DNA of 64,000 nt. Origin: Klenkia taihuensis. Lineage in GTDB: Bacteria > Actinomycetota > Actinomycetes > Mycobacteriales > Geodermatophilaceae. This document shows, piece by piece, positions 10,871 to 57,616 of the stretch; position 1 is the first letter of the stretch, and every line of letters begins with the position of its first letter. The stretch spans positions 496,001 through 560,000 of the forward strand of contig NZ_FOMD01000004.1 in assembly GCF_900112525.1 (NCBI RefSeq), given 5' to 3'. A model generated the notes under the pieces. It saw nothing but the letters and a program-made list of their open reading frames with translations, did not search any database and was not told the DNA's origin. A program made the translations under genes and the position numbers.

Positions 10871-10899
10871 CGGGGGTCGGGGCGCGCAGCGGCCGTGGG

Positions 10900-10905
10900 T
10901 AACCT
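10900..10905 (+). promoter_or_regulatory. Probable -10 element (TAACCT) of the aminotransferase gene
   Basis: TAACCT ends 7 bases before the ATG at 10913, again a leaderless layout. An in-frame GTG at 10895 exists but lies upstream of this hexamer and is not favoured. Confidence 0.5.
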
Positions 10906-10912
10906 GCGGCAC

Positions 10913-11998
10913 ATGCTGCGCGCCCGCACCCTGCTCGGACCCGGCCCCTGCAACCCCTACCCGGAGGCGACGGTCGCCCTCGGGCAGCCGCTGCTGGGGC
11001 ACCTCGACCCGCTGTTCCTGCAGGTCCTCGACGAGACCTCCGACCGGCTGCGCACCGTCTTCGGGACCGGCAACCGGCGCACCCTGCCGCTGTCGGCGAC
11101 CGGGTCGGCCGGCATGGAGGCCGCCTTCGTCAACACGCTGGGGCCCGGCGACGTCGCCGTGGTCGCGGTCAACGGCCTGTTCGGCCAGCGGATGGTCGAC
11201 GTCGCCTCGCGCACCGGCGCGGAGGTCGTCGCCGTCGAGCACGAGTGGGGCCAGCCGGTCGACGCCGACCGCGTGCTGTCCGCGCACCCCTCGCCCAAGG
11301 TCATCGCCGCCGTGCACGCCGAGACCTCCACCGGCGTGGAGTCCGACATGGCCGCGCTCGGTGCCGGCAAGGGTGACGCGCTGCTGATCGCCGACTGCGT
11401 GACCTCCCTGGGCGGCATCCCGGTCGAGTTGGACGCCTGGGGCGTGGACATCGCCTACTCCGGGTCGCAGAAGTGCCTCGGCGTCGCCCCCGGCCTGGCC
11501 CCGTTCACCATCTCCGACCGGGCGTGGGAGCGCCGGATCGAGAAGCCGCAGTCGTGGTACCTCGACCTCGGCATGCTGGGCGGCTACGCCGGCGAGGCCG
11601 CGGGCTCCGGAGGCCGCACCTACCACCACACCGCGCCCACCGGCATGGTCGTCTCGCTGCACGCTGGCCTGGGGCGGGTCCTGGAGGAGGGCCTGCCCGC
11701 CGTGCACGCCCGGCACGCCGCCGCCGGCGGTGCCCTGCAGGCCGGTCTGGCAGAGCGCGGCATGCGGCTGTTCGCCGCCGAGGGCCACCGGCTGCCCGAG
11801 CTCACCACCGTGTGGGTGCCCGAGGGCGTGGACTCCGCCGCGGTGCGCAAGCGGCTGCTGGAGGAGTACTCCATCGAGATCGGCGGCGGCGTGGGCGAGT
11901 TCGCCGCGACCGTCTGGCGGATCGGGATGATGGGCCACAACGCGAGGCCCGACACCGTCGCCACGGTGCTGGCCGCCCTGGACGCCGTCCTCGCCTGA
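10913..11998 (+). CDS. Class V PLP-dependent aminotransferase (alanine-glyoxylate/serine-pyruvate type)
   Basis: Fold-type I aminotransferase of the serine-glyoxylate/alanine-glyoxylate family (361 aa). The N-terminal GPGPCNPYPEA is typical of the family, TGSAGMEAAFVN binds the cofactor phosphate, and the PLP lysine is in YSGSQKCLGVAPGLAPF near residues 182-198. Possible physiological reactions are glyoxylate + alanine or serine transamination, photorespiration-like or purine-derived glyoxylate disposal; the sequence alone does not fix the donor. It ends 14 bp before a palindromic repeat that separates it from a convergent gene. Confidence 0.85.
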   Translation: MLRARTLLGPGPCNPYPEATVALGQPLLGHLDPLFLQVLDETSDRLRTVFGTGNRRTLPLSATGSAGMEAAFVNTLGPGDVAVVAVNGLFGQRMVDVASRTGAEVVAVEHEWGQPVDADRVLSAHPSPKVIAAVHAETSTGVESDMAALGAGKGDALLIADCVTSLGGIPVELDAWGVDIAYSGSQKCLGVAPGLAPFTISDRAWERRIEKPQSWYLDLGMLGGYAGEAAGSGGRTYHHTAPTGMVVSLHAGLGRVLEEGLPAVHARHAAAGGALQAGLAERGMRLFAAEGHRLPELTTVWVPEGVDSAAVRKRLLEEYSIEIGGGVGEFAATVWRIGMMGHNARPDTVATVLAALDAVLA

Positions 11999-12012: not shown

Positions 12013-12085
12013 GTTGATCATCGTCGTCCGCAGCTCGGACACGCCGGCAGCCGGCGTGTCCGACGTGCGGATGACGATGATCAAC
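12013..12085. repeat. 73-bp palindromic repeat, copy A
   Basis: A nearly perfect inverted repeat: arms of about 35 bases begin GTTGATCATCGT and meet at GGACACGCCGG / CCGGCGTGTCC around a 2-base centre, with only three mismatched or wobble positions. It lies between two convergent genes and contains the stop codon of the AbiEi/DUF559-like gene. A second element of identical length and architecture lies at 13079-13151. It could act as a transcription terminator, a REP-like element, or both. Confidence 0.8.
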
Positions 12086-12956
12086 GCGGGCGGGGCGGCG
12101 GCTGCCAGCCGCGGCTGGTGAGTGCGCGGCGGCAGCGGTCGACCACCGTCCACCGGTTGCGGTGGCGGTTGGCGAACCGGAGCACCAGCCAGCCGCCCGC
12201 GGCCATCAGCGAGTAGCGGTCGATGTCGGAGTCGAAGCGGTCGGCCTCGGCGTGCTGGCGGCCTTCGTACTCGCCCAGCAGCTTCCACGTCTCCCAGCCC
12301 AGGTCCCCGTGCGCGACGACGTCGCCCCGCGCGTCGCGGACTGGTACCTGCAGCTCCACCGGCGGCAGGTCGCTGTCGATCAACCACCACCGCATCTGGC
12401 TCTCGGGGCGGGACATCGCCCGGCCGTCCAGGTGCGGAGCGACCGCGCGGGCCCGGACGACGCCCCGGGTGCGGTCCGCGCGGGCCAGTCGTGCGGTCAG
12501 CTCGGCCGGGTCCAGGGTGCCCGCCCGGAGCAGGGCGTCGCCGACCGCGCAGAGCTCGTCGGCGGACAGGGCGGCGGCGCAGTCCAGGAACGTCTGCGGA
12601 CCGCTGGTCACCCGGAGACCGTCGCGGACAACGACGTCGTCCTCGGCCAGCGCGCGGATGCGGGTGACCACCTCGGCGCGCTGCGGCAGCACCCGGCGCG
12701 GGGTGAGCGCGATGGCCGGTCGGGCCGGCAGGTCGACGTGCGCCCCGAGCAGGTGGGCGGCGGCGAGGTGGCTGAACGCCGCGTCCGGCGGCAGGCCCTG
12801 CGCGAGCAGGGCGAGGCGGCCGCGCCCGTCGACCGCGTCGGGCAGCTGCACCCAGCGGTCGTGCGCCAGGTGCAGCCAGTCGGCGCCCTGGCGACGGCCG
12901 CGTCCGGCGCCCAGCCCAGTGGCCTGCGCGGCGGTGACGACGTGGGGTGTCTGCAC
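12081..12956 (-). CDS. AbiEi/DUF559-like protein with nuclease-like C-terminus
   Basis: A 291-aa protein of the actinobacterial family usually labelled as having an AbiEi-type antitoxin domain and a DUF559/Vsr-like C-terminus. The GTG at 12956-12954 is chosen because the upstream extension would read through palindrome copy B. The N-terminal part looks like a winged-helix module (VTAAQATGLGAGRGRRQGAD); the C-terminal part carries GEYEGRQHAE, DSDIDRYSLMAAGGWLVLRF, a pattern seen in very-short-patch-repair-like endonucleases (acidic residue, E-x-E/Q core). Function is unknown: defence, toxin-antitoxin control or DNA repair are all possible. No partner toxin gene adjoins it. Flanking palindromes suggest a small cassette. 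Confidence 0.65.
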   Translation of the reverse strand: MQTPHVVTAAQATGLGAGRGRRQGADWLHLAHDRWVQLPDAVDGRGRLALLAQGLPPDAAFSHLAAAHLLGAHVDLPARPAIALTPRRVLPQRAEVVTRIRALAEDDVVVRDGLRVTSGPQTFLDCAAALSADELCAVGDALLRAGTLDPAELTARLARADRTRGVVRARAVAPHLDGRAMSRPESQMRWWLIDSDLPPVELQVPVRDARGDVVAHGDLGWETWKLLGEYEGRQHAEADRFDSDIDRYSLMAAGGWLVLRFANRHRNRWTVVDRCRRALTSRGWQPPPRPR

Positions 12957-13187
12957 ACGTCGACCGTGGCGCCGGGAGCGGGTGCCCGGCCGCCGTCCGC
13001 CCCATCTGTGGACGGGGCCGGCCGATGTGGACGTCGGCCGGCCGGTCGCGCGCCCCTCTGCTACGGGCTCCCACCGCTGTTGATCATCGTGCGGTGCAGG
13101 TGGGACACGCCGGTGATCGGCGTGTCCCACCTGCCGATGACGATGATCAACCGCGCGGGGGGTGGGGCAGGGGTGGGGGAGGAGGGG
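12957..13187. other. 231-bp intergenic region holding palindrome copy B
   Basis: Between the divergent-in-order but co-oriented minus-strand genes at 12081-12956 and 13188-14060. Apart from the 73-bp palindrome it is G-rich next to 13150-13190 and shows no convincing reading frame. The promoter of the DUF559-like gene should lie at about 12957-13075, but no clear TANNNT/-35 pair was recognised. Confidence 0.5.
13079..13151. repeat. 73-bp palindromic repeat, copy B
   Basis: Same length, outer arms (GTTGATCATCGT and its complement) and inner core (GGACACGCCG / CGGCGTGTCC) as copy A, but with different bases in between. At arm position 24/50 copy A has a C-G pair and copy B a G-C pair, a compensatory change that argues for a selected hairpin. 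It lies 36 bp past the stop of the minus-strand aldo/keto reductase. Confidence 0.8.
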
Positions 13188-14060
13188 TCAGGCGGTGGTG
13201 TTCAGGCGGGCGAGCTGCTCGTCCGTCAGCTGGACGTGGGTGGCGGCCGCTGAGTCCTGGATGGACCTCGGCTTGCTGGCGCCCGGGATCGGGATCACCA
13301 CGTCGGCCTGGGCCAGGTGCCAGGCCAGCGTCACCTGGTAGACCGAGACGCCGAGTTCCTCGGCCACCGCGGCGAACTCGGCCGCGGTCGAGGCCAGCGA
13401 GCCCGCACCGGACATGCCGCCGAACGGGCTCCACGGCAGCCAGGCCAGCCCGGTGGCTGCGCAGTGCGCCAGCTCCCCGGCCGAGGAGCGGTAGCCGGGG
13501 GAGAACTGGTTCTGCACGCTGACCAGCGCGTCCCCGAGGATGGCCCGGGCGGCGTCGATCTGCTCGACGTCGGCGTTGGAGATGCCGACCATCCGCACCT
13601 TGCCGGCGTCGTACAGCTCCTTCATGCCGCCCATCGACTCCTCCCACGGCGTCCCCGGGTCCGGGCGGTGGAACTGGTAGAGCCCGATCGCGTCGGTGCC
13701 CAGCGCCCGCAGCGACGCCTCGCAGGCCCGGCGGAGGTACGCGGGCGACCCGTCCAGGCCCCACTCGGTGCCCTCCCGCGTGTGCCCGCCCTTGGTGGCG
13801 ACCAGGACGTCGGCCGACCCGCCCCACGACCGGATCGCCGCGGCGACGGTGCGCTCGTTGTGGCCCACCTCGGACTCGTCGAGGCAGTAGGCGTCGGCGG
13901 TGTCCACCAGCGTCACGCCGGCGTCCAGCGCGGCGTGCACGGTCCTCTCGGCGTCCTCGGGGCAAGGCCGGTCGCCCACGGACAGGGGCATCGCGCCCAG
14001 GCCGATGGCCGACACGGTCACCCGGCCGACGGTGTCGTTGCCGATGGTGCGGTGCTGCAC
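13188..14060 (-). CDS. Aldo/keto reductase
   Basis: A second aldo/keto reductase, not closely similar to the one at 8122 (290 aa). Catalytic residues: Asp/Tyr in [14 protein letters not shown], Lys in [10 protein letters not shown] and His in [12 protein letters not shown]; the cofactor-binding segment is [15 protein letters not shown]. The GTG at 14060 has AGAGGA about 10 bases upstream; a longer frame reaches 14201 but would overlap the divergent rarA promoter. Monocistronic, divergent from rarA. Substrate unknown. Confidence 0.82.
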
Positions 14061-50894: not shown

Positions 50895-50933
50895 CCGCCC
50901 GGGTGGGAGGTGATCCCCCGCGGCGGGAGGCCG

Positions 50934-51533
50934 TCACGACGACCTCCGCCCGTCGGCGACCACCTCCGACCCGTGGGCAGCGAGCCACCGCCGCGCGGTC
51001 CGCCGGTCCCGCACGGCCTTGCCGGCCAGGACGACCGCCAGCACCACCCAGGTGACCCCGAGGACGGCACGCCAGCCGTCGTCGGCGGCCCGCAGGACCC
51101 AGAGGACGCCGAGGGCCAGGTAGAAGGGGGACAGCCACAGGCCGGCCCGGGCGTCCGACGCCTCCTTCTCCGCCTTCGCCAGCACGCGTGCCCGGGCACC
51201 GGGCGGCGCGGGCAGGCCGTGTCGCAGGGCGTGGTCGGCCCGGGCCTCGCCGGCGTCGTCGGCCAGGTCGGCAGCGGCGGCGGAGCCGTCCCGGCGGCCG
51301 GCGAGCAGGCGCCGCGGGCTCTCGCCGGCCTGCCGCTCCAGCCACCACCAGCCGGCCCCCACCGTGGCCAGGAGCAGCACCAGCAGACCGAGAGGGAGGA
51401 CGTCGGGCGGGCCGTCGGCGACCTGGGGGGCCAGCAGGAGGGCGGCGCCGGTGAGCGCACCGGCCACCCAGCCGGCGCGGCGGCGGAACCGTCGGCGCCG
51501 GCCCAGCCGCAGCCAGAGCTCGTCGTCGTCCAC
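50934..51533 (-). CDS. Hypothetical membrane protein
   Basis: 199 aa. Basic N-terminus (RLGRRRRFRRRAG), two hydrophobic helices (AGALTGAALLLAPQVA, LGLLVLLLATVGAGWWWL), a central acidic/Ala-rich cytoplasmic loop, two more helices (FYLALGVLWVLRAA, VLGVTWVVLAVVLAGKAV). No known family recognised. Convergent with acs, with a 39-bp gap. Confidence 0.6.
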   Translation of the reverse strand: MDDDELWLRLGRRRRFRRRAGWVAGALTGAALLLAPQVADGPPDVLPLGLLVLLLATVGAGWWWLERQAGESPRRLLAGRRDGSAAAADLADDAGEARADHALRHGLPAPPGARARVLAKAEKEASDARAGLWLSPFYLALGVLWVLRAADDGWRAVLGVTWVVLAVVLAGKAVRDRRTARRWLAAHGSEVVADGRRSS

Positions 51534-57526: not shown

Positions 57527-57533
57527 GCGACGC

Positions 57534-57600
57534 GGACCCCGGTGTCGGGGACACCGGGGTCCACTGGCTGGTGCAGGGCCCGGGTTCCCCGACACCGGGG
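57534..57600. terminator. Hairpin with an alternative pairing between convergent hisG and the MFS gene
   Basis: Perfect 13-bp inverted repeat GGACCCCGGTGTC / GACACCGGGGTCC (57534-57546 and 57550-57562) with a GGG loop, 7 bp after hisG. A further copy of the right arm, CCCCGACACCGGGG at 57587-57600, can pair instead with CCCCGGTGTCGGGG starting at 57537, so two mutually exclusive folds exist. Bidirectional terminator is inferred. Confidence 0.65.
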
Positions 57601-57616
57601 CCGGCGGTGGTGCGGG

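Follow-up and report, generated by a model that had tools for sequence, protein, structure and literature searches.

The locus examined here raises the question of why a single nuclease-like gene should stand between two palindromes of the same design, and of whether the protein and the palindromes belong together. It lies in a stretch of 64,000 nucleotides from Klenkia taihuensis (hereafter the window), to which all coordinates given without a contig refer. Palindrome copy A (12013-12085) lies a short way beyond the stop codon of a convergent class-V aminotransferase gene (10895-11998, plus strand, start according to the ORF tool), which served as a locus marker in relatives. Copy B (13079-13151) lies 36 bp beyond the stop of an aldo-keto reductase gene (13188-14060, minus strand, start according to the gene caller), the upstream neighbour and a marker of the locus throughout the family. 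The only gene between the two is a minus-strand gene of the DUF559 family (12081-12956), denoted type A and encoding about 291 amino acids from a likely GTG start, inferred by alignment, that is placed about 120 bp downstream of copy B. Both copies are assigned to a palindrome type denoted S1; they share the outer arms GTTGATCATCGT and the core GGACACGCCG, and over 36 arm pairs the self-complementarity amounts to 92% for copy A and 83% for copy B. Folding of the plus-strand RNA yielded -65.7 kcal/mol for A and -57.4 kcal/mol for B, as against means of about -26 kcal/mol for shuffled sequences (z -12.5 and -10.5), and an Rfam search of the window returned no match at gathering scores. The initial annotation had reported two 73-bp palindromes with common arms and core on either side of the gene, and both coordinates and length were confirmed; its remark that copy A holds the stop codon of the gene is equally correct, the TGA at 12081-12083 on the minus strand being located inside that copy.

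The window protein scores 21.1 bits against PF04480, just above the cut-off of 20.6, and DUF559 is its only Pfam match at an E-value of 0.001; the AbiEi profiles of PADLOC match it as well. Five residues (E185, D218, E229, H235 and D244) are kept in 98-100% of 110 family proteins. By our own assignment they appear to follow the E-D-x-H-D order of the Vsr and I-Bth0305I nucleases, for which the family name EDxHD is used in the accessible part of PMC6083498. An AlphaFold2 model was obtained with a pLDDT of 84.8 and a pTM of 0.82. Residues 41-178 of the model resemble the AbiEi antitoxin 6y8q (Z 8.5); residues 179-285 resemble NGO0050 (3hrl, Z 7.4) and the catalytic domain of I-Bth0305I (3r3p, Z 6.6), values below 8 that may reflect common structural arrangements. 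The top ranks of a Foldseek search were taken by AbiEi and Rv2827c at E-values of 0.001-0.002, 3hrl and 3r3p both exceeding 0.4, and mitoribosome chains are also found among the structural neighbours. On the strength of the model and the conserved residues, the protein appears to combine an AbiEi-like part with a nuclease of the EDxHD type, similar to Vsr and to homing endonucleases. The Caulobacter DUF559 protein VsrA is needed for the DNA-damage response in cells devoid of a cytosine methyltransferase, according to the available text of PMC12907096, which by analogy suggests that proteins of this type may be able to damage DNA in cells. Several DUF559 copies of relatives (L174-L179, L181 and L182) are split by stops or frameshifts, and the flanking palindromes persist at most of them.

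The association between gene and palindromes was then considered for all members of the protein family in the same genome. PF04480 matches nine sequences in it, eight of them above the cut-off. An alignment of six palindrome-flanked proteins, used as the query, added a ninth intact gene, C5:174536-175378; a 72-bp palindrome (C5:174460-174531, covariance model E 0.155) lies four bases from it. The upstream region of each of nine genes was compared with the downstream region of every one of them, and the similarity scores were arranged as a matrix. For eight clear genes the matching pairs scored 72, 32, 40, 36, 42, 50, 44 and 54, as against a median of 19.5, a 95th percentile of 26 and a maximum of 29 for the mismatched pairs among them, so that each matching pair is the maximum of both its row and its column. 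Among the 40,320 possible pairings of these eight genes, the true one alone reached the observed sum; with the full nine-gene matrix, one of 200,000 random pairings did so. The ninth gene, L025, obtained a matrix score of 27 that arises outside the palindromes (15 in the six-gene comparison); its upstream palindrome is present, and at its stop codon a 13-base arm is repeated without any change. The 180-residue match below the cut-off (L030) has a pairing score of 13. Judged by sequence similarity, eight of the nine intact DUF559 genes that were detected here thus appear clearly bracketed on both sides by a palindrome type of their own. The REPtron-like arrangement proposed in the initial annotation gains support here, since paralogues with palindrome pairs of their own type tie the palindromes to the DUF559 protein family, and copies are also dispersed.

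This dispersion was assessed at several levels of sensitivity. A pattern search with a free gap of 42-72 retrieved six copies from the genome, all of 73 bp. A covariance model, for which 14 copies were taken on both strands, identified 22 places at E < 0.001, 19 of them 73 bp and three 72 bp long, and matches to the model are found in 75 of the 112 genomes of the family. At least two subfamilies are distinguishable within the genome, S1 (CATCGTC...GCAG) and S2 (CATGCAGAAC...GCAACG). All 18 own copies examined with their flanks are intergenic according to our gene calls, some with an overlap of 5 bp at a stop codon, and 16 of them adjoin the 3' end of a gene; inspection of the 18 by eye disclosed no target-site duplication. 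The window itself contains a further palindrome of another type between two convergent genes (57531-57606). Its best match, with a score of 41, is the downstream palindrome of L027, another DUF559 gene of the same genome, and it scores at most 17 against the flanks of the other eight; by this similarity it would be a dispersed copy of a second gene-palindrome pair, and thus represent a second dispersed family within the window. Dispersed copies are mostly without a DUF559 gene as neighbour, as might be expected of palindromes spread over gene ends with no link to the protein, the outcome that had been named as adverse to the association; the link itself holds nonetheless, cognate pairing tying the copies to the family.

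A C-G to G-C change at positions 24 and 50 had been put forward as a sign that the hairpin is under selection. The change is real between copies A and B, but it cannot serve as evidence for selection on a base pair: over 11 same-type copies of the genome, these positions are complementary in five (GC in three, CG in two), the remainder being CC in three and GG in three. In the covariation counts every copy entered once per strand, and what they show is largely the presence of two subfamilies. Stem mismatches of S1 recur at the fixed positions 15-17/57-59, 22/52 and 24/50; positions 15/59 and 16/58, for example, display G-A and G-G in six of 11 copies, adjacent to an invariant GCA. Such fixed mismatches may constitute a recognition bulge. 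Two side observations concern palindromes outside the pairs described above. A strong palindrome of the window (50900-50973) does not match the flanks of the nine own DUF559 genes (best score 16). A further repeated family of the genome, with GTTGATC ends and an AGATCT centre, occurs at C5:750653, C7:658528, C7:697599, C10:22427, C10:364417, C10:466152 and C10:601037; its arm motif was not found in the window, nor was a DUF559 partner for the family.

The analysis was extended to the family, where 109 of 112 genomes have protein matches at an E-value of 1e-20. Loci were selected by protein score, and palindromes scoring at least 15 were regarded as strong. Strong palindromes occur upstream of 82 of 100 clade loci as against 8 of 107 background genes from the same stretches, downstream of 85 of 99 loci as against 12 of 98 background genes, and on both sides of 73 of 99 loci. 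A more distant group of 11 loci (L183-L193), intended as controls, proved to be bracketed too: palindromes of other types stand upstream in 10 of them and downstream in all 11. The median distance from the end of the upstream copy to the profile match is 115 bp, mostly about 90-150 bp, and that from the end of the match to the downstream copy is 4 bp. The two sides of each locus were compared for 114 loci, of which the family search supplied 110, the remaining four being other own genes (L101, at a contig end, was left out). Their similarity reaches at least 25 in 102 cases; the same value is attained by 90 of 456 mismatched pairs, among them relatives sharing one palindrome type, and by 4 of 34 neighbour genes. 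At the level of the class, a search at an E-value of 1e-12 found a relative in 185 of 296 genomes. The class sample comprised 29 loci, the best-scoring of their genomes, with the truncated L202 left out; 22 of the 28 testable loci score at least 32, where mismatched pairs have a 95th percentile of 26 and a maximum of 188. The respective threshold was missed by 12 of the 114 loci and by six of the 28 class loci. At an E-value of 1e-5, relatives were found in two of 72,556 plasmid records, both megaplasmids of one Arthrobacter with scores of 40 and 42, and in none of 50,697 phage records. The two megaplasmids carry a common palindrome type (L288 4326-4395 and L289 2625-2690), located beside the DUF559 match on one and about 1.7 kb away on the other.

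Protein identity and palindrome similarity are correlated over 105 loci (rho 0.71; none of 300 permutations reached this value, the best giving 0.15). With respect to the nearest relative, the flanking pair is more alike than the orthologous copies in 20 of 52 loci (p 0.31, not significant). Flanking copies being no more alike than orthologous ones, the co-divergence is partly a matter of shared descent at one locus, which would account for much of the correlation. Concerted evolution of the two flanking copies was considered and set aside for the same lack of overall significance; split by distance, the flanking pair surpasses the orthologous copies in similarity in 12 of the 15 loci with a nearest relative at 60-75% identity and in 8 of the 37 with a closer one.

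Nine Klenkia genomes allowed the locus to be followed at closer range: the window's own (G000) and G076-G083, of which G082 is 73% complete. The interval between the reductase and aminotransferase genes holds a palindrome, gene A and a second palindrome in G000, G081, G083 and G078. A broken gene stands between palindromes in G080. The DUF559 gene of G079 is a different one, with 55% identity in the part that could be matched, and is flanked left and right by palindromes of another type; G082 has a gene similar to that of G079, for which the downstream palindrome alone was detected. Palindromes left at this locus in genomes devoid of the gene had been anticipated as an argument against the association; the interval in G076 and G077 contains neither a DUF559 gene nor S1, and each of them displays one palindrome of another type. 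Of 109 family loci, 65 have the aldo-keto reductase gene close to the DUF559 gene. This conserved neighbourhood and the state of the locus in relatives indicate that the gene is mainly inherited in place, and they lend no support to the suggestion of a small mobile cassette: the gene mostly keeps its position, and it is lone palindromes that are scattered instead.

The distribution of S1 follows that of gene A. Half-sites with at most one mismatch, counted by hand, are present at 10, 13, 10 and 4 places in G000, G081, G083 and G078 respectively, all of which possess gene A; one such half-site is found in G080, which has the broken A-like gene, and none in G076, G077, G079 and the 73% complete G082, all without gene A. 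Where gene A is missing, the matches with two mismatches seem fortuitous, and one of them corresponds to a sequence common to seven of the nine genomes. Among these nine genomes, S1 is thus observed only alongside gene A or its remnant. The closest relative of the window's genome in the stretch compared, G076 (93% over 6.7 kb, compared with 90% for G081), has neither, which makes a joint loss of gene and palindromes probable in that lineage. S2 behaves more loosely. Its half-sites on the two strands number 16+22 and 14+16 in G077 and G081, both of which carry a second gene type, denoted B, and 8+8, 4+6, 3+3 and 2+2 in G000, G076, G078 and G083, four S2-bearing genomes in which no gene-B ortholog appeared; G079, G080 and G082 have one half-site each, in the same shared sequence. 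As S2 persists without an ortholog of gene B, palindromes can outlive or escape their partner, and the copies of G000, G076, G078 and G083 are tentatively read as relics.

Mobility of individual copies was checked at two S1 sites and at a third place in a 9.7-kb stretch, the same sites being read in relatives. At the first site, S1 is present in G000; no palindrome was seen in G076, G077, G078, G079 and G083, and palindromes of another type, resembling that of the own gene L133, occupy it in G081 and G082, a third type being found in G080. At the second, G000 and G081 have S1 together with about 1 kb, which the five other genomes read there (G076, G077, G080, G082 and G083) lack. At the third place, an S2 palindrome is found in G077 alone of the eight genomes read, with further types in G078 and G080. 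The junctions are not clean enough for a target duplication to be defined. The notion that two close palindromes form a moving cassette by themselves was also rejected, the genes they enclose in relatives being ordinary ones: a glyoxalase gene (L065), a glyoxalase gene with an AraC-type regulator gene (L066) and the aminotransferase gene (L070).

The explanation that we regard as probable is a two-component system in which a chromosomal nuclease gene accompanies a population of short extragenic palindromes, in a manner similar to REPIN-RAYT with an unrelated enzyme. Its operation may be envisaged as follows. The AbiEi-like part would bind the cognate palindrome, either as a double strand, as a cruciform or as a hairpin on the lagging strand. 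The EDxHD-type nuclease would cut at or beside the bound palindrome, and host repair would copy it into new intergenic sites. The gene would in this way sustain its palindrome population while itself staying put by vertical descent. We infer that the DUF559 protein is responsible for the mobilisation of the palindromes. A broader proposition, also favoured although held with less assurance, is that the DUF559/AbiEi-like nucleases of actinomycetes represent a second, independently evolved class of palindrome-maintaining enzymes, with several orthogonal pairs per genome, palindromes that move to the 3' ends of genes under their own nuclease and a specificity that diverges by co-evolution.

Three other explanations were weighed. 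The protein could be an autoregulator with the palindromes as its operators; at the ends of genes these would also work as hairpin terminators, and a different agent would have spread them. The upstream copy located shortly before the gene in most loci, the 3' gene ends beside 16 of the 18 own copies and the ability of AbiEi to bind inverted repeats and repress its own operon, as stated in the accessible portion of PMC7319586, are all in keeping with such a role, which we nevertheless consider unlikely: an operator leaves unexplained the matching copy at the stop codon, the dispersed copies at unrelated genes and the pattern of presence and absence, and repression does not require the conserved nuclease site. 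Markedly less probable still is an action of the nuclease on RNA, by which the enzyme would act on the palindromes as hairpins at mRNA 3' ends and tune the ends or the stability of transcripts, the spread of the palindromes in DNA being incidental. The location of the copies at gene ends and their very stable RNA folds would suit this function, a Vsr-like protein acting on mRNA is known from the available part of PMC11879112, and mitoribosome chains occur among the structural neighbours. The gain and loss of lone copies at DNA sites weighs against it. The same holds for the homing endonuclease among these neighbours, an enzyme that acts on DNA. Finally, ordinary bidirectional terminators with a coincidental bracketing of the gene, already mentioned in the initial annotation as the plain alternative, would agree with the many copies that lie between convergent genes or at their ends, and with a palindrome end that often supplies the stop codon, but have almost no plausibility left in view of the near-fixed length of 73 bp with common arms, the locus-specific matching of the two flanking copies, the dependence of S1 on gene A and the position of one copy on the promoter side of the DUF559 gene in most loci.

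A two-component system of nuclease gene and palindromes would offer a testable function for a nuclease family that is still named a domain of unknown function, and gene-palindrome pairs would account for a class of intergenic palindromes of actinomycetes. If it is true, unrelated enzymes have on more than one occasion given rise to the strategy of REPIN-RAYT, in which a domesticated enzyme maintains short hairpins as a population within the genome. The matched protein-palindrome pairs, several per genome and dozens in the family, also constitute a natural data set for the study of sequence recognition by nucleases. No link between DUF559 proteins and palindromes was found in the titles and opening lines of abstracts of the open-access literature, and no paper on RAYT in Actinobacteria was found there either, the coverage of preprints and subscription journals being poor in both cases.

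The system described here shares features with several known ones. The conserved E-D-x-H-D residues, together with a predicted fold that may be similar, bring it close to the homing endonuclease I-Bth0305I and to Vsr. The present protein differs from these in its fusion to an AbiEi-like part and in the absence of any visible intron or intein context, and there is no indication of homing into an uncut allele or of mismatch repair. The resemblance to AbiEi, a component of type IV toxin-antitoxin systems, rests on residues 41-178 (Z 8.5) and on the PADLOC AbiEi profiles, and extends to the palindromes in that inverted repeats are bound by AbiEi, a repressor of its own operon (PMC7319586, from the portion available). 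Unlike in AbiE, the neighbours are an aminotransferase and an aldo-keto reductase gene instead of an AbiEii toxin gene, and a nuclease-like domain is present. An integron attC cassette is not suggested either, the constant layout of a gene with two copies at one locus arguing otherwise. The closest parallel is REPIN-RAYT, which, as far as the accessible parts of the reports extend, likewise combines a single chromosomal enzyme gene with cognate flanking palindromes (RAYT: PMC3116915, PMC8049555), dispersed extragenic copies able to form hairpins, several independent pairs per genome and an enzyme that is vertically inherited and rare on plasmids. REPIN-RAYT also has fewer copies where the gene is missing, a trait that S1 displays among the nine Klenkia genomes and S2 only in part. 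The elements themselves differ: REPs measure 20-40 bp according to the available text of PMC3733652, whereas the present palindromes are of about 55-90 bp, with GATCAT-like arms in S1 and S2, and S1 reaches some 4-13 copies compared with the hundreds given for REPIN-RAYT in the portions of those sources at hand. The partner differs as well, being a DUF559 nuclease-like protein with an AbiEi-like part instead of a Y1/HUH tyrosine transposase. Since this defining transposase is absent from the bracketed gene, the system is not a member of REPIN-RAYT; by analogy, it would work like one.
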